From a virus, in IMG/VR virus record IMGVR_UViG_3300030101_001574, positions 1-30,715 of that record: a stretch of 30,715 nucleotides of DNA; one strand, written 5' to 3'. The first letter of the stretch is position 1, and each line of letters begins with the position of its first letter. Below, one piece after another: positions 1 through 30,715 of this stretch. A model generated the notes under the pieces. It did no database searches. It had not been told where the DNA came from and saw nothing but the letters and a program-made list of their open reading frames with translations. A program made the translations under genes and the position numbers.

Positions 1-272
1 TGTTATAGTTGTTATTTTAATTTGTATTTATTTTTTTTCTGTTTACAATACCTGTTTGTGATCTTAACCAAAGTTTTTTTATTCTTAATTTTTTTTCAAT
101 TTCTGCATATTTTTGATTTTTGTTATATACTTTTTTTTGATATATTTTATTATGTATTTTATTATACTTTGGTAAAAATTTTCTTATATACTTTTCTTCT
201 AATCTGTTTACTTCTTTACTTGTAGTAAAATCACCTAAATTTTCTATAATTGTCCAAGAATCAAATTCCTTA
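1..272. repeat. Left copy of imperfect terminal direct repeat
   Basis: These bases match 30304-30715 nearly base for base, with scattered substitutions and single-base indels. The exception is one block (30412-30555 in the right copy) that is replaced here by a single codon near 111-113. The repeat covers the 3' part of a GIY-YIG endonuclease gene. The right copy stops exactly at the window edge, at the base equivalent to 272, as expected when a circular or terminally redundant genome is cut inside this gene. Confidence 0.85.
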
Positions 273-418
273 AAACTTGATAAATGTGTACTTAATCTAT
301 TAAGTATATTAGTAGATTGTCCAATATAAACTATTTCATTATTACTTATTAAAGCATATATTATATAACAATGTTTTATTTCTCTTTTACTACTTAATAT
401 TTCTTTTTTTGTTTTCAT
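17..418 (-). CDS. GIY-YIG family endonuclease (short form)
   Basis: This 133-residue protein has a GIY-YIG nuclease domain in its first 90 residues. The two signature strands read IIYAL (19-23) and VYIGQS (30-35). Arg41 lies in the NILNRLSTH helix, the acidic pair Glu74/Glu75 is in RLEEKYIRKF, and Asn86 follows KY, which agrees with the catalytic Arg/Glu/Asn pattern of the family. The lysine-rich tail (about 92-133) is probably DNA binding. Such phage genes are usually free-standing homing-type nicking or cleaving enzymes. A longer version of the same gene, with an HTH block inserted at the domain junction, enters the window from the right edge. The C-terminal few residues differ because of a length change in an A-run. 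The product assignment is firm; the homing role is inference. Confidence 0.8.
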   Translation of the reverse strand: MKTKKEILSSKREIKHCYIIYALISNNEIVYIGQSTNILNRLSTHLSSFKEFDSWTIIENLGDFTTSKEVNRLEEKYIRKFLPKYNKIHNKIYQKKVYNKNQKYAEIEKKLRIKKLWLRSQTGIVNRKKINTN

Positions 419-4287: not shown

Positions 4288-4455
4288 TTAATATTCTGTT
4301 GCATCTGCTGTAAATTGAGTAGTGTCTGCTGTTTCCAAAGTGGTGTCTGCAGTAAATAATGAACCATCAGCATCAAAAGGGTATACGATACCCCAACCAT
4401 TTGCTTCATTAACATTACCCCACCAACTAACTGAATAAATTGATCCATAACTCAT
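4288..4455 (-). CDS. Small conserved phage protein, 55 aa (SWWG...FTADTT type)
   Basis: The ATG at 4455 is preceded by TATTGTATTA on the coding strand, one of the recurrent start elements of this genome. The product reads MSYGSIYSVSWWGNVNEANG at its start and ends with repeats of T-A-D-[TA]-T (FTADTTL, TADTTQ, FTADATEY). Small proteins of this pattern are common just upstream of fibre genes in marine phages. They are probably minor virion or fibre-attachment components, but I know no demonstrated function. The TADTT triplication suggests a short beta-repeat. Confidence 0.65.
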   Translation of the reverse strand: MSYGSIYSVSWWGNVNEANGWGIVYPFDADGSLFTADTTLETADTTQFTADATEY

Positions 4456-4456
4456 A

Positions 4457-4564
4457 TTAATACAATAACTTTTTTTCTAATTTGTTATTTACTTTATTTA
4501 TATAATTCTGCAACTTTGTAATATTTTGTTGCTTTGGTTTGTATTTCTTTTTTATATTACCCAT
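4457..4564 (-). CDS. Small lysine-rich protein, 35 aa
   Basis: The ORF starts inside the last codons of the connector gene and stops one base before the ATG of the next small gene. The product begins MGNIKKKYKPKQQNITKLQN and is predicted helical and strongly basic. Tight packing on both sides is the only support, and it could be untranslated spacer. No family recognised. Confidence 0.4.
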   Translation of the reverse strand: MGNIKKKYKPKQQNITKLQNYINKVNNKLEKKLLY

Positions 4565-6817: not shown

Positions 6818-7159
6818 TTATAAAACTATAAATTCATTATCTGTACTATGTACTGTATATTCATTGTTGTTTACAGAATAAGAAGAAATTGTTTGGTTAG
6901 TGCAAAATATCTTATCTCTATAAATTAAGTTACTACCTTGTTTAATTTCTAATGTGTAAAAAGTATCTTCTACTAAAGTAAAGGTATTACTATATTGGTA
7001 ATAATAATCATTAGCAGTAAAAGAGGTTGTTGTTTGACTAAACACCTCTTTGTTTGTTGTTTCATCATTTATTTTAATCGTATAGGTTAAACCTGTTGTG
7101 TACGATCTTGGAATAAAATTAAACGTTTGGCTGCTACCTGACTGTTCTAATATAATCAT
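6818..7159 (-). CDS. Small beta-rich structural protein
   Basis: This 113-residue product is dominated by alternating hydrophobic and Thr/Ser residues (SGSSQTFNFIPRSYTTGLTY at 7-26), suggesting an all-beta fold. I have seen small proteins of this kind between capsid and portal genes in marine Bacteroidetes phages. Plausible roles are capsid decoration or joining; nothing in the sequence decides this. Upstream lies a terminator hairpin (7200-7223), so the gene probably starts a new transcription segment or is reached by read-through. TTTATTGTTATAT precedes its ATG. Confidence 0.6.
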   Translation of the reverse strand: MIILEQSGSSQTFNFIPRSYTTGLTYTIKINDETTNKEVFSQTTTSFTANDYYYQYSNTFTLVEDTFYTLEIKQGSNLIYRDKIFCTNQTISSYSVNNNEYTVHSTDNEFIVL

Positions 7160-7199
7160 ATATATAACAATAAATCTTTCTTGAATTTGTTATAATAAA

Positions 7200-8837: not shown

Positions 8838-9425
8838 TTAATTATTTTTTAAGTTAGCTATTTTTGAAAGCACCCTATCATATGTTGTTTGTGGTCTTTT
8901 TTGCCCATACAAGTGCATTGCTTTCTTTGTTTCCTTTTCAGGATTGTGTTTAATTTTCTCAACAGGTTGTTCTACTGCTGACAATTCTTCTTTGGTTTCT
9001 GATTCAGGTTCTTCTGCACTCATTTCATCTTTCTTTTCAATCATGCCTTTGATTTCCTCAATCATTTCTTTCACCTCTGCTAATTCTTCTTTAGTAGCGT
9101 ATTGCATTTCTTCCTTTTCTTCTTCTAAATTTTCCTCTTTGGACGCTTCCTCTGCAGGTTCTTCTGCCTTTCCAATAGATGCAATTACACCCTCTTCTTC
9201 AACTTTGAGCATCTCTCCATCTTCTAAAGTGTATTCACCTACAGGTAGTGCTACTTTTTCATCTTCTGTTACAATAAATACTTCACTTCCTGCAGCAAAA
9301 TTTTCACTTTCTATAACAGTACCATTTTCCAAAGTAGCTTGTGCTAATTTTACTTCTTGGGTTTCTTCTGTAAGTTCAACTCCAAGAACTTCTTTTACTT
9401 TGTTTAACATATCTGTTGCTTTCAT
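8838..9425 (-). CDS. Acidic scaffold-like protein
   Basis: This 195-residue protein is very acidic and helical: long Glu/Lys runs include EEPAEEASKEENLEEEKEEM, and a predicted coiled coil follows (EELAEVKEMIEEIKGMIEKK). Its C-terminus turns basic (ETKKAMHLYGQKRPQTTYDR). This charge layout, and its place between protease and major capsid genes, are typical of capsid scaffolding proteins, whose basic C-terminus contacts the shell. The N-terminal 90 residues (VLGVELTEETQEVKLAQATL, GTVIESENFAAGSEVF) form a small beta-rich domain. I recall such a domain before acidic linkers in other phages, possibly a capsid-binding part. TATTGTA precedes the ATG. Confidence 0.65.
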   Translation of the reverse strand: MKATDMLNKVKEVLGVELTEETQEVKLAQATLENGTVIESENFAAGSEVFIVTEDEKVALPVGEYTLEDGEMLKVEEEGVIASIGKAEEPAEEASKEENLEEEKEEMQYATKEELAEVKEMIEEIKGMIEKKDEMSAEEPESETKEELSAVEQPVEKIKHNPEKETKKAMHLYGQKRPQTTYDRVLSKIANLKNN

Positions 9426-9463
9426 ATATATTACAATAAATTATAAATGTGTTTGTTGTGTTT

Positions 9464-9883: not shown

Positions 9884-10027
9884 TTATGTACCATCTCCTG
9901 TTATGTTACCAATACCTTGTGCTTGGAAACTACCATCGCAACACTTTCTTGAATATGTTCCATCAGGACATAAACATGCTCTTTTATCACTTTGTGGTGA
10001 TGGGTTTTTTTCTTTGTAATCTCTCAT
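9884..10027 (-). CDS. Small Cys-rich protein, 47 aa
   Basis: The ATG at 10027 overlaps the stop of the protease gene (ATGA) and the ORF ends in TAA at 9884. The product begins MRDYKEKNPSPQSDKRACLC, then GTYSRKCCDGSFQAQGIG. Four cysteines (CLC and CC) in 13 residues suggest metal binding or disulfides. I recall this NPSPQSDKRACLC...YSRKCCDGS...AQGIG pattern as a tiny conserved protein in the structural region of marine Bacteroidetes phages, with no known function. Overlap and motif recognition support a real gene. Confidence 0.7.
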   Translation of the reverse strand: MRDYKEKNPSPQSDKRACLCPDGTYSRKCCDGSFQAQGIGNITGDGT

Positions 10028-11622
10028 TTTGGTGCTTTTGGATGTTTAGCAGGTAATAAATCATAATCACCTGTATATTTTGGGTTTTGTGGTCTGCCAT
10101 TTTTAACTAAATACAAAAATGCATTAACCCTTGCAAATGCCCATTGTGATGCACTTCTTACTCTTGGTGAATGGGAAACATTAAATGCACCTAATCCTCT
10201 TTGGAATACTGCTTTTAGTTTTCCTACTGTAACACCATATCCTAATTTATCTTTGTACCTTTTATTAAAATCATCACTTTTTGTTTGTAAAGTTTTTTCA
10301 TCTGCTTTAGATACCTTTGCACCTCTACCTGTAGATGCATCACCTTTTGCTGTACCTTTACCTTTTGGGTTTTTGTTAGGTGTACCTGACTTTGGTGCTT
10401 TAGGTGATTTTCTTATACCACCTCTTTCACCTACTTCTGCATATTTATATTTTTTTTTTACACATTTACCATTTTTATCTTTTGTAAAACCTTTAGGACA
10501 TTTTAATTGTTCTTCTGTTTTTATATGTGTTTCACATGGCATGTACCATGTTTTTAATTTACCATCTTTATCTTCTAAATCATGTGTATGAAATCCTTTG
10601 CAACCAATATTTTTTGCCATTTCTTCTGCTTTCTCTTGTGTTGAGTAAGCTAATCTATCATCTATAATTGCAAAATCATCATCTATTACCTCTGTTTTTA
10701 ATTCTATTTCACCTAATTCTTTAAGTTTAGATTCACTCCATCTTTTACCTGCTAAACCACCCCATAGTAAGAAACTTATTGTACCACATGCTTTTGTATC
10801 ATCAGGTTTGTAATATTCTTCTGCTCTTGATAAAAAAGAATACATACGTTTTATTGTTTCTACTGTTATAGATTCTTTCTTTGCAAGTTGTGATGCTCTA
10901 ACTTTACCTACTTGTGTTGCACATTTGTTATCTACCTTTTCGTTTAGTTCGATACCTTTTTTTGCATTGTTAGATACTGCATCAGGATAATCAGAAAATG
11001 ATTCTAATTGTTCACCTCTTAATATTTGTTTTACTTCTGATAAAAGATAATCTGCTTCTTGTTCATCCATACTTTGCAAAATAGCAAGTTCATTAGGTTC
11101 ATTTGGTCTTTCTGCTTTGTCAGCAAAGTAACCCTCTATAGAAAATCCTTTAACCTTTCCTGTTTTAACATAGTCATTCCAAACATCATCATTTAAAACT
11201 TTCATGGACAACATCCATGTTCCTTTTGGCATATCCATACCATACGCTGCACTTTTATCTTTTTTAGGATCTTCTACTAACCATGATTCTACAGCTACTA
11301 ATCCATTTAATGGCATACCATGTTCTAATGTAGATCTATTATAGTTACCCCTTATAAAAAATAATTCACTTGCTTTTCTTACTGTATCTCTTGAAAAATA
11401 AATGTAATATTCTTTATCTTCATTCTTTCTGTATATGGGTTTGTTGGGTATAAGTGCAGCACCCATAAGTATCCTTTTCTCTTTGTTTACTTCTGCAAAT
11501 TTTACTTCATGATTTTTAAGTGCAATAAAATCTTCTTCTATTGCAGGGTTTTCTACTATTGATACTGCTTCAATTCCTGAAACCTCATCTTGTTCATCTA
11601 TAAAAAGTTCTACTATATCCAT
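10024..11622 (-). CDS. Prohead protease (XkdF-type serine protease) with accessory modules
   Basis: Of 532 residues, the first ~170 form an XkdF-like head maturation protease. GAALIPNKPIYRKNEDKEYY and RSTLEHGMPLNG carry His101, and VKGFSIEGYF carries Ser161, the expected catalytic pair. A second module (about 208-305) has SDYPDAVSNNAKKGIELNEK, KCATQVGKVRASQLA, and CGTISFLLWGGLAGKRWSES. This resembles the NNAKRAL...CGT...W module in Bacteroidetes phage head proteins. A short piece follows (GCKGFHTHDLEDKDGKLKTW, MPCETH). After a Gly/Lys/Pro linker, residues about 450-532 form a DUF5824-like domain (KLKAVFQRGLGAFNVSHSPR, FARVNAFLYLVKNGRP, YDLLPAKHPKA). The protease trims scaffold and capsid; the other modules have no function known to me. 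TATTGTA stands 5 bases before ATG. Confidence 0.85.
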   Translation of the reverse strand: MDIVELFIDEQDEVSGIEAVSIVENPAIEEDFIALKNHEVKFAEVNKEKRILMGAALIPNKPIYRKNEDKEYYIYFSRDTVRKASELFFIRGNYNRSTLEHGMPLNGLVAVESWLVEDPKKDKSAAYGMDMPKGTWMLSMKVLNDDVWNDYVKTGKVKGFSIEGYFADKAERPNEPNELAILQSMDEQEADYLLSEVKQILRGEQLESFSDYPDAVSNNAKKGIELNEKVDNKCATQVGKVRASQLAKKESITVETIKRMYSFLSRAEEYYKPDDTKACGTISFLLWGGLAGKRWSESKLKELGEIELKTEVIDDDFAIIDDRLAYSTQEKAEEMAKNIGCKGFHTHDLEDKDGKLKTWYMPCETHIKTEEQLKCPKGFTKDKNGKCVKKKYKYAEVGERGGIRKSPKAPKSGTPNKNPKGKGTAKGDASTGRGAKVSKADEKTLQTKSDDFNKRYKDKLGYGVTVGKLKAVFQRGLGAFNVSHSPRVRSASQWAFARVNAFLYLVKNGRPQNPKYTGDYDLLPAKHPKAPK

Positions 11623-11651
11623 ATCTATACAATAATATTATTTTGTTTTTG

Positions 11652-13244
11652 TTACCCTATTGATGCTGTGTTTTCTATTTGCCTATCTAATGCTTGTTGG
11701 TTAGAAACCTCATTACTTACTACAAATGCTTTAATTGGTTTTTGTTGTTGTCCCTCTATAGTTTGTGCTAATTGGTTTTCAGGTGCAGATCCCACAACAT
11801 TAAATGCAGGTGCTTGTGATGTTCTTGGTGTTGCAACATTACCCATATTACCACTTGATGCACTACCACCTTGTGAACCTATCATTGATTTTGCTGTACT
11901 TACTGCTGACTTAATACTCATTGCTATACCTGCTGCTTGTGCTGCAAATATTGCAATCAATGGTACATTTGCAGGTGGTGGTGCTGCTGCTGCTGCTTTC
12001 ATTAAACCTTTTGCACCATCAACTCCTGATTCTGCAGCAGATGATAAAATTCTTTGCATTGTTGCTTGTGCTGCTAATATTTGTTCTTTTATTATCATTC
12101 CTGTTTTTAAAAGGAATAATGCTTTTGCTATTTTACTTTCTTCTCCTGCTGCTTGTGCAACAGCATCCATTGCACCAAATATTGCATCTTTTCTTTTTTC
12201 TTCTAATTCTAATGCTTTTTCAGTTAATTCTATTTTCTGTTCCTCTGCTTCTCTTTCTAAAGATATTCTGTTAATTAATTGTTCTGATCTGAACCCCTCT
12301 ATTTGTGCTAATATACCCTCTCTCTCTGCTCTTGCTTCTAATAGTGCAATTTGGTTTTCATCATTATTATTTTTATCAAATTGTGCTTGTGCAGCAGCTA
12401 TAACTGCATCTGCATTTGCTAACATCAATCTTTCTTGTTCATTTAAAACCTCACCAAGTTTTTCATTAGCAGCAACTCTTTCTTCTATAGTTTTACTTTC
12501 ATCATCTCGTATTTGTCTTAACTTCTCTGCTTCTCTATCTTTTTGTTCTAAAATAATTCTATTTTGTGCAATACCTACCTCTGCTGCTCTGTTTAGTTCT
12601 ACTGTATCATTTGCTGCTTGTATTGTACTTTTTGCATAATCTGTGATGCCTTTTACAACTGTAGGTAATGTTTCAGATACTTTATCAAATGTGTTATCTA
12701 CTCCTGTTACAACATCAAATAATTCTTTACCTGCATTTGTAGCACTTTCTGCTGCACCTGCAAAATCACCTTGAAATACTTTTACAACAGCTTCACCTAA
12801 AAATCCTAAAGCATCTAATGCAGATCGTACCCTCTCTATAACATTATCTACTATTGCTCTACCAAAGTTCTTAATTGCAACAACAGGATTTTCAAAAATA
12901 CCTTTAAAGTAATCTATAACAGTACCTACATTTCTATCTAAAAAATTAAAGAAATCATTAAAAGCAAGTGATAGTGTTTCAAATACAGTATTAAAAGTAT
13001 TAGCAACTTTTTGGTTTTGATTAAATACCTCTGCTAACTTTGCAAATGCAGCAATAGCCAATCCTATACCTGCAGCTTTTAGCGCATTACCTATACCCTT
13101 AACACCTTTAGCTACACCACTTGATGTATCTTTAACATCTTCTAAATTTTTATCTATATTTTCTACACTCTTTGCAACACCTTGTAAATCTTTTTCTGCT
13201 TTACCAACTCTTGCTTCAAGTTCTATTGTTTTTGTAATTGCCAT
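11652..13244 (-). CDS. Tape measure protein
   Basis: This 530-residue protein has the expected composition. The N-terminus is helical (LEARVGKAEKDLQGVAKSVE), followed by Gly/Ala hydrophobic segments (LKAAGIGLAIAAFAKLAEVF; FLGEAVVKVFQGDFAGAAES). A long charged coiled coil spans about 215-350, with RIILEQKDREAEKLRQIRDD. A C-terminal hydrophobic part follows (PPANVPLIAIFAAQAAGIAM), then a Ser/Gly/Gln-rich end. Tape measures set tail length and leave with the DNA. At roughly 1.5 angstrom per residue the tail would be about 80 nm, which is an inference from the family rule. No lytic domain is seen. It lies between the large tail protein and the prohead protease, an unusual place next to head genes. 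Confidence 0.8.
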   Translation of the reverse strand: MAITKTIELEARVGKAEKDLQGVAKSVENIDKNLEDVKDTSSGVAKGVKGIGNALKAAGIGLAIAAFAKLAEVFNQNQKVANTFNTVFETLSLAFNDFFNFLDRNVGTVIDYFKGIFENPVVAIKNFGRAIVDNVIERVRSALDALGFLGEAVVKVFQGDFAGAAESATNAGKELFDVVTGVDNTFDKVSETLPTVVKGITDYAKSTIQAANDTVELNRAAEVGIAQNRIILEQKDREAEKLRQIRDDESKTIEERVAANEKLGEVLNEQERLMLANADAVIAAAQAQFDKNNNDENQIALLEARAEREGILAQIEGFRSEQLINRISLEREAEEQKIELTEKALELEEKRKDAIFGAMDAVAQAAGEESKIAKALFLLKTGMIIKEQILAAQATMQRILSSAAESGVDGAKGLMKAAAAAPPPANVPLIAIFAAQAAGIAMSIKSAVSTAKSMIGSQGGSASSGNMGNVATPRTSQAPAFNVVGSAPENQLAQTIEGQQQKPIKAFVVSNEVSNQQALDRQIENTASIG

Positions 13245-19794: not shown

Positions 19795-20448
19795 TTATAT
19801 CATCAAATTTGGTAACATCTCCTTTAGCAAGTCCATAGATTGATTGATACCAACCCCATTTTTTTCCAAAGTTTGAAGTTGTAAAGTGTTCATCTGATTG
19901 GGTACTTCCCTGTTCAAATAGTTCAGGATAGTTTGCAGTAATTCGTTGTTTAAATTGTAAAAAAAAACTATAGAACCCATTACAACATCTAACCTCATCT
20001 GCTTCATTTGTTCTGCATCATCAGTTCCATCATATTCTTCAATCAAATACTTATCTCCTTTTCTCATTGTAACAGGTCTATAGAGTACACTCATTGCTTT
20101 GTGCATGGTTTCCCAATCAGTAAGTGAATCATCTAAATCAATATATTCACCTAAACTAATATCATCAAGTTTTGGTATAAAACCATACTCTTTACCTTTG
20201 AGTTTAAATGTAGGTATAAGATCAGGTTTTTCTGAAAACACATTATCTATATCTTTAATTACAGATTTTACACTATGCACTTTTATCTTTGCAATATCTT
20301 TTAGATCTAACCCACAAAAGATCTCAACAGTTTTATGTAATATAAAATTTGTGTTTTGATTTTCTTCTGTATTTATCTTGTTAAACTTTTGATACTGTTC
20401 TAAAGTTATTTCTGATAAACTTGTAGGTACTTGTATTTTTACTTTCAT
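19795..20448 (-). CDS. Putative tail assembly chaperone/unknown phage protein
   Basis: This is 217 residues, soluble and helical, with the opening MKVKIQVPTSLSEITLEQYQ. I associate that start with a conserved Bacteroidetes phage protein upstream of tail genes. Other segments include KGKEYGFIPKLDDISLGEYI and MSVLYRPVTMRKGDKYLIEE, then a C-terminal helical part (FFYNLNNELLQTILNYLNRE). Tail chaperones (lambda G-like) typically sit at this place, are of this size and are followed by a small or frameshifted partner. The 29-aa ORF just downstream could be such a remnant. No slippery sequence was recognised. TATTGTA stands 5 bases before ATG, after a terminator. Confidence 0.5.
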   Translation of the reverse strand: MKVKIQVPTSLSEITLEQYQKFNKINTEENQNTNFILHKTVEIFCGLDLKDIAKIKVHSVKSVIKDIDNVFSEKPDLIPTFKLKGKEYGFIPKLDDISLGEYIDLDDSLTDWETMHKAMSVLYRPVTMRKGDKYLIEEYDGTDDAEQMKQMRLDVVMGSIVFFYNLNNELLQTILNYLNREVPNQMNTLQLQTLEKNGVGINQSMDLLKEMLPNLMI

Positions 20449-20489
20449 ACTAATACAATAAACTTTTGTGATATATGTATAAAAAGAAA

Positions 20490-24242: not shown

Positions 24243-24821
24243 TTATAATACACCTCTCTTTGTTTGTTGTTCTTTTGTATATAAATCTTCAATTTCTTTA
24301 ATTGTAAAATTATCATGTATTATATTATGGCAATTTTCACATAGTATTTTTAAATCTCTTTGATGCTCATGCCCCCATCTTCTATAAGTTCTATGATGTA
24401 TATGTAAATACTTAGAATCATTTGGAATATATCCACAATCTTCACATTTTATCCCTCTTTTCTTTAAGAGATATTTTCTTTTATTTCTCCAAATAGAAGA
24501 TTTAACATAATTTTTGTGATTTTGTTTATTATCAAAGTCAAGATTTTTACAAAAGTATAAATTAAAAGGTTTTGTTTTTTCTTTTATATTTTCTGTATCT
24601 ATAGATATGTTTAACTGACCTAATAACTTATCATTTACTTGTTTTATTACTTGTGTTATTCCGAATAAATGTTTATTAGTAATAATTCTTTTTTTCTTTA
24701 TTGATATGGTTAACATACCTTTATAATTAGATGGTACATATCTATAATTTTTATTTTTTTTTATAGTTCTTAATAAGAATACTTGATCTTTATTTAAAGG
24801 ATACCCTCTAATTTTCTTCAT
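24243..24821 (-). CDS. HNH endonuclease
   Basis: This is 192 residues with a C-terminal zinc-stabilised HNH domain. CEDCGYIPNDSKYLHIHHRT holds the first Cys pair and the His-His catalytic centre. LKILCENCHNIIHD holds the second Cys pair and last His. The first half (PLNKDQVFLLRTIKKNKNYR) is basic and probably binds DNA. Such enzymes in phages are free-standing homing nucleases or packaging nickases. It lies far from terminase, between ParB-like and RecB-like genes, which fits a mobile insert. The start codon overlaps the upstream stop (ATGA). Confidence 0.82.
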   Translation of the reverse strand: MKKIRGYPLNKDQVFLLRTIKKNKNYRYVPSNYKGMLTISIKKKRIITNKHLFGITQVIKQVNDKLLGQLNISIDTENIKEKTKPFNLYFCKNLDFDNKQNHKNYVKSSIWRNKRKYLLKKRGIKCEDCGYIPNDSKYLHIHHRTYRRWGHEHQRDLKILCENCHNIIHDNFTIKEIEDLYTKEQQTKRGVL

Positions 24822-26809: not shown

Positions 26810-27219
26810 TATGTATACTGTTTGTAAACTTTCTGTAGAGAATCCCATACTGTACTTTTAAAACTACATGGAATACATTCAACCCTTTGGTTAAATATTC
26901 TGTTGTATATAGATGTGTATTGTTTTGCTTCTTCTGCTGTAAATGTATTCTTTTTACTTTCAATAGCAGATTTCACTAATTCATATTCTGATGCAGTAAA
27001 ACATTCAGGTTTTTGTCTTGGAAATAATTTATTAAGTTTTTCTTTTCTTCTATCACAACCACAATCTCTACCATCTGCAAAAAATTCTACTGCTGCTTTT
27101 ATACCTGTAGCTGTTGTTATTTTTTCTACTACATCTCCTAAACCACTAATACCTGCTTCATGGTTTTTTTTCCATTGTTTATATGCTTTTGTTCTTTTAT
27201 CACCTTTATATTCTGTCAT
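26809..27219 (-). CDS. Cys-rich conserved phage protein, 136 aa
   Basis: The N-terminal segment AGISGLGDVVEKITTATGIK and the following AVEFFADGRDCGCDRRKEKL form a pattern I recall from several Bacteroidetes phages (GLGDxxEKxTxATGIK...DCGCxxRKxxLN). Further cysteines come in KPECFTASEY and VECIPCSF, giving five in total. Two CxC/CxxC pairs suggest zinc binding. It follows the sigma-like factor and overlaps it by 14 bases, hinting at joint action in gene control, but no function is established to my knowledge. Confidence 0.6.
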   Translation of the reverse strand: MTEYKGDKRTKAYKQWKKNHEAGISGLGDVVEKITTATGIKAAVEFFADGRDCGCDRRKEKLNKLFPRQKPECFTASEYELVKSAIESKKNTFTAEEAKQYTSIYNRIFNQRVECIPCSFKSTVWDSLQKVYKQYT

Positions 27220-27754
27220 AATCTTTATTTTTAAAATCTAAATAACTTTCTTCTACCTTTTCTTTTATATCTAATTTAAGTGTTTTTAAACTGTTGAATA
27301 TACTTACCCAAGAAATTTTAGTTTCTTCTGCAAGTTTTCTAATACTCATATCTGTTTTAGAATACAAGTTCCATAACTTTTTATCATACCAATGCCAATC
27401 ATCTGTAACCTCATCTACCAATAAACATATCTTATGAAATGCTTCGTTTTCTTCTATGTTATCAGTATCAGGTATTTGTAAAAATTTATCATCATCATCA
27501 ATACTTACTTTGTGTATTTTTTTCTTTTTGTTGTAGTATTGGAAATATAAACTCTTAAGTGTAAAAAATATATATCCCCTGCTTACTTTACCATCCTTAA
27601 TTATTTTTTCAGGATCTGCATATTTAGATAACGTAATATACATTTGTTGTACAAGATCTTCATGGTAAGTATATTCACCAAAACTTTTTACAATGCCAAC
27701 CCATGTTTTATGTTGTTTAGCAACCACACTTAACCATTCGAAGTTTGTACCCAT
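27206..27754 (-). CDS. Sigma-70-like/HTH transcription factor
   Basis: This is 182 residues. The first half resembles sigma region 2: YHEDLVQQMYITLSKYADPE (about 30-49) corresponds to the D-L-x-Q-[ED]-x-[FY]-x-x-[LV] helix, and GYIFFTLKSLYFQYYNKKKK (60-79) to the following -10 recognition helix with its basic end. After an acidic linker (about 85-103), residues 121-165 form a region 4-like HTH: HWYDKKLWNLYSKTDMSIRK, then LAEETKISWVSIFNSLK. It would direct host RNA polymerase to phage promoters, as late sigma-like factors do. The same HTH is found inserted in the endonuclease gene at the right edge. Related proteins are common in marine phages as I recall. A pure DNA-binding regulator is the alternative. 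Confidence 0.65.
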   Translation of the reverse strand: MGTNFEWLSVVAKQHKTWVGIVKSFGEYTYHEDLVQQMYITLSKYADPEKIIKDGKVSRGYIFFTLKSLYFQYYNKKKKIHKVSIDDDDKFLQIPDTDNIEENEAFHKICLLVDEVTDDWHWYDKKLWNLYSKTDMSIRKLAEETKISWVSIFNSLKTLKLDIKEKVEESYLDFKNKDYDRI

Positions 27755-29682: not shown

Positions 29683-30066
29683 CTAAAGAAATTTTTTGAT
29701 TTGTTCAGAATAATAAGTAATCTTATCCTGTAACTCATCAGTTGTAAATTTAACAACTTCTTTACTTTTATTATATAATTCTTCTGCCAAGTTATTACCA
29801 AGATATTTACTAAACTTATATTGTTGTCCTTGTTGCATAACGTTACATCCATAACATTGTGGTTTTACATTATCTTCTAACCATCTTGTACTGTAATGTT
29901 TTCTACTCATAAAATGTCCTGCTTGTATTTGTTTCCAAAAATATTTTTTACCACAAGTTACACAAGTACAATAACCATGTTTATCTGTATTACTTAATCT
30001 TATATATTGTGAAAATACTACATCAAGTTTTTTAACAACCTTACTTCTTGTAAGTTTTTTAGGCAT
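29683..30066 (-). CDS. ninG: NinG/Rap-like recombination nuclease
   Basis: This is 127 residues and matches the NinG pattern. The N-terminal helix contains VFSQYIRLSNTDKHGYCTCV. The zinc knuckle is CTCVTCGKKYFWKQIQAGHF, followed by MSRKHYSTRWLEDNVKPQC and the second Cys pair YGCN. The HF-S-R...TR-x-x-x-x-N-x-x-x-Q-C-x-x-C-N arrangement is an HNH-type centre. In lambda, Rap (NinG) is a structure-specific endonuclease acting on recombination intermediates. It fits the recombination set here. Its start overlaps the 80-aa gene by 8 bases. Confidence 0.85.
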   Translation of the reverse strand: MPKKLTRSKVVKKLDVVFSQYIRLSNTDKHGYCTCVTCGKKYFWKQIQAGHFMSRKHYSTRWLEDNVKPQCYGCNVMQQGQQYKFSKYLGNNLAEELYNKSKEVVKFTTDELQDKITYYSEQIKKFL

Positions 30067-30301
30067 CCATATGGTTTAGTAGTAAATTACCATCAGTAAC
30101 ATTAAAACTCTTAATCAACTTATACAGATGTTTACTATCAGATTTTACTTTGTTTTTTTCTGTTTTTGTACTATCAATACCTAAATTAGTATATTGTATT
30201 GCATCAAGTTGTAGTATAGCATCTGTTCTTTCTTTTACAGATAACTGAAAATCAATAGCAATTTTTTCAGCAAGTTTTCTAATAGTCATATCTTCATTCA
30301 T
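30059..30301 (-). CDS. Small phage protein with HTH-like N-terminus, 80 aa
   Basis: The product starts MNEDMTIRKLAEKIAIDFQL. MTIRKLAEKI closely resembles MSIRKLAEET in the HTH of the sigma-like protein, and the DNA coding for it matches over 24 bases with one difference. The remainder (YTNLGIDSTKTEKNKVKSDS, KHLYKLIKSF) is helical and not known to me. It directly follows the GIY-YIG/HTH gene and overlaps the NinG-like gene. Probably DNA binding; function open. Confidence 0.6.
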   Translation of the reverse strand: MNEDMTIRKLAEKIAIDFQLSVKERTDAILQLDAIQYTNLGIDSTKTEKNKVKSDSKHLYKLIKSFNVTDGNLLLNHMDA

Positions 30302-30303
30302 TA

Positions 30304-30715
30304 TGTTAGTTGTTATTTTAATTTGTATTTATTTTTTATTCTACTTACAATACCTGTTTGTGATCTTAACCAAAGTTTTTTTATTCTATATTTTTTTTCA
30401 ATTTCTGCATATTCTTGTAAATATTTCTTCACTCTTGTATAAGTATTATAAATAGAAGTATAACTAATATTAGTTTTATCAGATAAACTTTTTATGGTTT
30501 CACCACCTTGTATATAGTTATATATTTTCTTGTCATACCAATGTAACGTATCTATTTGATTTTTGTTACATACTTTTTTTTGATACATTTTATTATGTAT
30601 TTTATTATACTTTGGTAAAAATTTTCTTATATACTTTGCTTCTAATCTGTTTACTTCTTTACTTGTAGTAAAATCACCTAAATTTTCTATAATTGTCCAA
30701 GAATCAAATTCCTTA
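30304..30715. repeat. Right copy of imperfect terminal direct repeat
   Basis: The counterpart of bases 1-272. It carries an extra in-frame block at 30412-30555 (48 codons in place of one in the left copy). The flanks on each side of the block stay nearly identical, and the window ends inside the repeat. Confidence 0.85.
30313..30715 (-). CDS. GIY-YIG endonuclease with inserted HTH, 5' end beyond the window
   Basis: The reading frame stays open to the window edge, so the true start lies outside; the Met at 30588 is internal. The visible part begins at the equivalent of residue 50 of the left copy (KEFDSWTIIENLGDFTTSKE). It keeps the catalytic-side segment with KYIRKFLPKYNK, and ends KKLWLRSQTGIV then a frameshifted tail. 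Between VCNKNQ and YAEIEKK it has 48 residues in place of one: IDTLHWYDKKIYNYIQGG, then ETIKSLSDKTNISYTSIYNT. This is a helix-turn-helix. GIY-YIG enzymes commonly carry separate DNA-binding modules, so the block may set target specificity. Confidence 0.78.
   Translation of the reverse strand, partial: KEFDSWTIIENLGDFTTSKEVNRLEAKYIRKFLPKYNKIHNKMYQKKVCNKNQIDTLHWYDKKIYNYIQGGETIKSLSDKTNISYTSIYNTYTRVKKYLQEYAEIEKKYRIKKLWLRSQTGIVSRIKNKYKLK

Follow-up and report, generated by a model that had tools for sequence, protein, structure and literature searches.

One allele of a GIY-YIG nuclease gene in this virus carries an in-frame block of 141 nt (47 codons; 30415..30555, minus strand), which codes for a sigma-4-like HTH domain (IDTLHWYDKK...KKYLQE). 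Judged by identities and trees, the block stems from the sigma factor found in a sister lineage of phages, not from the sigma gene of the phage itself. We consider it probable that a free-standing mobile GIY-YIG nuclease of the homing type captured the sigma-4 domain of a sister phage as an extra DNA-reading module. In the following, "the window" is the whole stretch of DNA that was analyzed, which is the whole virus record (30715 bases).

Homing-type nucleases are built from shuffled DNA-binding modules. To our knowledge, such a module can rarely be traced to its source. In this case, one can see both alleles (plain and fused), the site without the gene and the family of donors. With a sigma factor as the donor, it is also possible to guess its promoter-like sites. 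Provided that the domain retargets the nuclease, the case would offer a directly testable path from a selfish gene to an anti-rival weapon.

Two alleles of one nuclease locus at the record ends

The window codes for a complete blockless nuclease of 133 aa near its left end (17..418, minus strand). This allele belongs to the GIY-YIG superfamily (PF01541, 34 bits, cut-off 22.6). The block-containing allele is found at the right end (30313..30714, minus strand) as a 133-codon fragment that is cut by the record end. The first-pass annotation had taken the right-hand protein for a second gene. This view had to be abandoned. When the record ends were compared with each other, positions 1-272 aligned with 30304-30715, except for the block and a few differences. 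The terminal 77 bp overlap is exact (196-272 corresponds to 30639-30715), while the wider end overlap is imperfect. In a related contig (L056), window position 1 joins directly onto the gene at 30059-30301. The overlap and this continuity indicate that the record ends are two alleles of a single site, in a genome that is circular or circularly permuted. The alternative of two paralogous nuclease genes is ruled out by the overlapping ends. The record is classed as linear. Since two different alleles were assembled at its ends (1-272 and 30304-30715), their overlap is imperfect and would be missed by terminal-repeat checks that require exact repeats.

Only the second half of the fused allele is present in the record. 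This copy is devoid of the N-terminal 49 codons, including the GIY and YIG motifs, which were not assembled, and it has its last 77 bp in common with the left allele. The residues Y21, YIG, R41, E74 and N86 are invariant in the nuclease alignment (A2), and the fused allele retains E74 and N86. We infer the GIY/YIG/Arg catalytic part of the fused allele from the blockless allele.

Mobility of the nuclease gene

The nuclease gene is sporadically distributed. Of 50 related records, 6 have a PF01541 match above the cut-off, and no donor-type record is among them. The proteins from L056 and L158 are 100% identical to the left allele. For most of its length, the left allele is 99-100% identical to its counterpart from L056; the downstream flank is ~80-96% identical and the upstream flank mostly 65-92%. 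Two phages (L002 and L021) have ~80 bp in place of the nuclease gene and are ~98% identical to the window around the site. Because near-identical phages have no nuclease there, the gene is considered mobile on comparative grounds. Such a presence/absence polymorphism with empty alleles is as expected for a free-standing homing endonuclease.

The block is missing from all four more distant relatives found at this site (L057, L058, L059 and L159, ~71-73% identical). For this reason, the blockless state is most likely ancestral and the block was gained. Among named phages, only weak GIY-YIG matches were found. An HNH endonuclease gene (24243-24821) is 98.9% identical to its counterpart in L005 over 188 aa, and the neighboring genes are 58-79% identical; it is probably another nuclease gene that has moved recently.

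The inserted block and its relation to the sigma factor

The block is located between the catalytic domain and the basic C-terminal motif RIKKLWLRSQTGIVSR, a conserved tail of the blockless relatives. Its limits are uncertain by up to 4 nt, and its edges carry CAAA/CAAGA. The reading frame is open through the block to the native tail. In a structure model of the nuclease fragment, the block forms an HTH (10-residue mean pLDDT 92-96). When the fragment was compared with known folds, the matches were weak (E>0.1); among them were a sigma factor and HTHs of the LuxR/FixJ type.

It had been noticed that the block resembles the C-terminal HTH of the phage's own sigma-like protein (27248..27394, minus strand, limits approximate), to a degree that seemed too specific for chance. 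Both points are borne out. In a pairwise alignment, 19 of 48 positions are identical (56% DNA identity). The alignment score is 99, whereas the maximum among 2,000 shuffles was 47, so that none was as good. A tblastn search of the record with the right-hand ORF also matches 27251-27490 (E=1e-8). The proposed profile alignment of the two segments gave a probability of 99.0% (E=4e-18, 38% identity over 48 columns). The similarity would have lost its meaning if unrelated HTH families matched the block equally well. The best Pfam match, however, is to Mga (E=0.0028), which is below the cut-off of that family, and Sigma70_r4_2 is at E=0.18. A generic HTH resemblance is thus ruled out by the shuffles, the weak Pfam HTH matches and the profile-profile score. 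The segment in the phage's own sigma factor is a distant counterpart of the block.

The source protein is an ECF-like sigma factor, represented in the window by the gene at 27206..27754 (minus strand), as assigned by PHROG, Pfam and fold. In its family, 22 of 27 members match a PHROG sigma family and 15 of 27 match Pfam Sigma70_r2. The AlphaFold2 model of the window's protein has a mean pLDDT of 84, and its top PDB fold matches are ECF-type sigmas, with 1or7 (E. coli sigma-E) ranking first (E=2.8e-4). Sequence and fold of the sigma2 and sigma4 domains thus place it in the Sigma-70 family, ECF type. According to this model, the source protein folds like an ECF sigma, and the block corresponds to its region-4-like domain.

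The 80-aa gene at 30059-30301 opens with an MTIRKLAEKI-like sequence. Within the DNA coding for the sigma HTH (27322-27353), 29 of 32 bases match the corresponding gene start in L002, which is perhaps a further shared fragment. Judged by TerL, Flavobacterium phages are the closest relatives in culture (~50% identical).

Origin of the block in a sister lineage

The sequence similarity had been taken to suggest that a domain moved between a transcription factor and a nuclease within the same genome. The sharing of the domain stands, but the transfer within one genome does not. The block is 79-85% identical to the C-terminus of the sister-lineage sigma and only 40% identical to that of the phage's own sigma. 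Examples are 39 of 46 identical residues in L064 and 38 of 48 in L060 (79.6% DNA identity). A codon tree groups the block with the donor-type sigmas (support 0.96), and a protein tree places it in the same way. These identities and both trees rule out a same-genome transfer. The exact donor is not among the sampled sequences. At the DNA level, the known donor sequences are no more than 80% identical to the block.

A profile scan of IMG/VR with the block revealed a large ECF-like sigma gene family. At least 576 relatives were confirmed, and the 80 best of them are without exception sigma-like ORFs, none being a nuclease. No relative was confirmed when cellular genome contigs were searched with the block profile. 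The direction from sigma factor to nuclease is favored because the blockless nuclease relatives lack the domain while at least 80 sigma proteins have it. The donor-type phages share their gene order with the window, and their lysis-side genes are closely related (gene 630 is 79-96% identical), while the sigma factors are only ~31-37% identical between the two.

The fused allele was seen once, at a contig end. A comparison of phage GIY-YIG proteins with and without the block had been suggested; it yielded blockless relatives, but neither the relatives search nor the junction-pattern scans retrieved another nuclease with the block. The junction-pattern scans, which may leave out the window's own record, showed no second fusion case.

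An assembly artefact, with the block stitched in from another phage of the sample, must be considered, because the block lies within ~300 bp of the contig end and the population is mixed. We regard this as very improbable. A de Bruijn chimera requires a long shared sequence at the joint, but only ~5 nt are shared here. In addition, nuclease sequence is present on both flanks, and an assembled-in copy does not fit with the lack of any known donor sequence above 80% DNA identity.

Alternatively, a fragment of a sister sigma gene might have been joined illegitimately at CAAA/CAAGA into a weakly constrained nuclease gene, as a chance insertion without function. The sequences at the block edges and the single occurrence of the fusion are consistent with this, and so is the ratio of 6 unique replacements to 7 unique synonymous codon changes in the block. 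On the other hand, a complete domain has been inserted exactly in frame, its conserved core residues are kept, and the frame remains open to the native tail. A chance insertion is, on balance, rather unlikely. One of the replacements, Y33T in the recognition helix, is present in no close donor. Given Y33T and the other replacements, DNA binding by the block may be changed or relaxed.

Late-promoter-like motifs and the possible target

Promoter-like motifs differ between the two lineages. The motif AACAAA-N15-TTGT has 25 gene-strand hits in own-type phages (1.6 expected), mostly just before start codons, and 1 in donor-type phages. Conversely, CGTwAT...TATG has 16 hits in donor-type phages (1.9 expected) and 1 in own-type phages. 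Since the motifs had been spotted by eye in the very genomes in which they were then counted, the counts do not amount to an independent test of discovery; nor are hits at orthologous positions independent of one another. At three orthologous operon starts (those of the genes at 19795, 8838 and 6818), each lineage carries its own motif. The -10 part clearly differs between the lineages (CGTwATA in the sister lineage). For the -35, the part that sigma4 would read, the donor sequence is ill-defined and cannot be clearly told apart from the own -35. Such lineage-specific motifs would fit with a sigma factor that directs RNA polymerase to specific promoters.

Five putative own-type late promoters were located in the window, all on the minus strand. 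They precede the genes at 19795-20448 (20445..20479, with a weak -35), 10024-11622 (11619..11653), 8838-9425 (9423..9457) and 6818-7159 (7157..7191), and a further one is at 4452..4486. Except for the first, they read AACAAA-N15-TTGT. All five end at a start codon, suggesting that late messages are leaderless or nearly so.

In the mechanism that we favor, the locus is a free-standing mobile homing-type nuclease, present in some phages of the group and missing from near-identical ones. One allele would have gained the 47-residue sigma-region-4-like HTH from the late sigma factor of the sister lineage, placed in frame ahead of the native basic C-terminal motif. This HTH would most likely be an added DNA-reading module. 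The fused nuclease would then bind and cut near sites of the donor sigma (the -35 of late promoters), besides or instead of its native site. With the HTH, specificity would be extended or shifted, in the manner of modular homing endonucleases (PMC1564403, PMC2988022). It had been proposed that the nuclease might be aimed at the promoters or the sigma gene of the phage itself or of a rival phage. Should the domain still recognize a -35 element, then its origin speaks for promoters of the sister lineage as the target, in preference to those of the phage itself. The nuclease may possibly be directed at them.

In a stronger form of this explanation, the sigma-4 domain would aim the nuclease at the late promoters of its source lineage during coinfection, as a means of interference competition. 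In favor of it, the block comes from a sister lineage and not from self, and the promoter-like motifs are lineage-specific. Gene order and lysis-side genes are common to both lineages, which may therefore have overlapping hosts. Precedents are a homing endonuclease involved in phage competition (PMC11620839) and T4/T2 marker exclusion (PMC2988022). However, the donor -35 resembles the own -35, and only a single allele carries the block. We therefore consider a weapon against sister phages unlikely. The specific claim that the nuclease uses the captured promoter-reading domain to cut the late promoters of the sister phage, as a promoter-aimed weapon, is more doubtful still.

Sigma4 normally also contacts the beta flap of RNA polymerase. 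The domain might thus dock the nuclease on the host RNA polymerase, or compete with a rival sigma, without reading DNA. This dual role of sigma4 is established, and both family and fold assign the domain to the sigma-4-like HTHs. Nevertheless, we consider protein contact as the sole role to be highly unlikely, and prefer an added DNA-reading module.

Comparison with known systems

As in the T4 seg genes and other free-standing GIY-YIG homing endonucleases (PMC2988022), the nuclease is encoded intergenically and occurs sporadically among phages, with an allele that is near-identical between phages whose flanks have diverged. It differs in being very small (133 aa without the block) and in having one allele with a sigma-4-like HTH.

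PhiPA3 gp210 is an intron endonuclease acting in phage competition and a precedent for a homing endonuclease that harms a coinfecting relative; it is an HNH enzyme encoded in an intron, and the text consulted mentions no sigma-derived domain (PMC11620839). Among the papers searched, none was relevant to sigma domains in homing endonucleases or to NUMOD and sigma54. Some members of the sigma family match HNH endonucleases (PHROG 7545/8446), and the match of the window's sigma is in its HTH region. Those proteins have an HNH catalytic domain, and the similarity is weak (best E 2e-4).

The source protein shares the sigma2 and sigma4 architecture and the fold of ECF sigma factors (PHROG 1740; PDB 1or7, E. 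coli sigma-E). Unlike known ECF sigmas, it belongs to a family from uncultured phages, and a tblastn search of 50,697 named phage records with the window's sigma gave no match.

Like I-TevI and the NUMOD modules (PMC1564403, PMC2988022), the fused nuclease combines a GIY-YIG catalytic domain with small modular DNA-binding units, including an HTH. No NUMOD was among the Pfam matches of either allele or of the block at E up to 1. In contrast to those modules, the block is traceable to a phage sigma factor.
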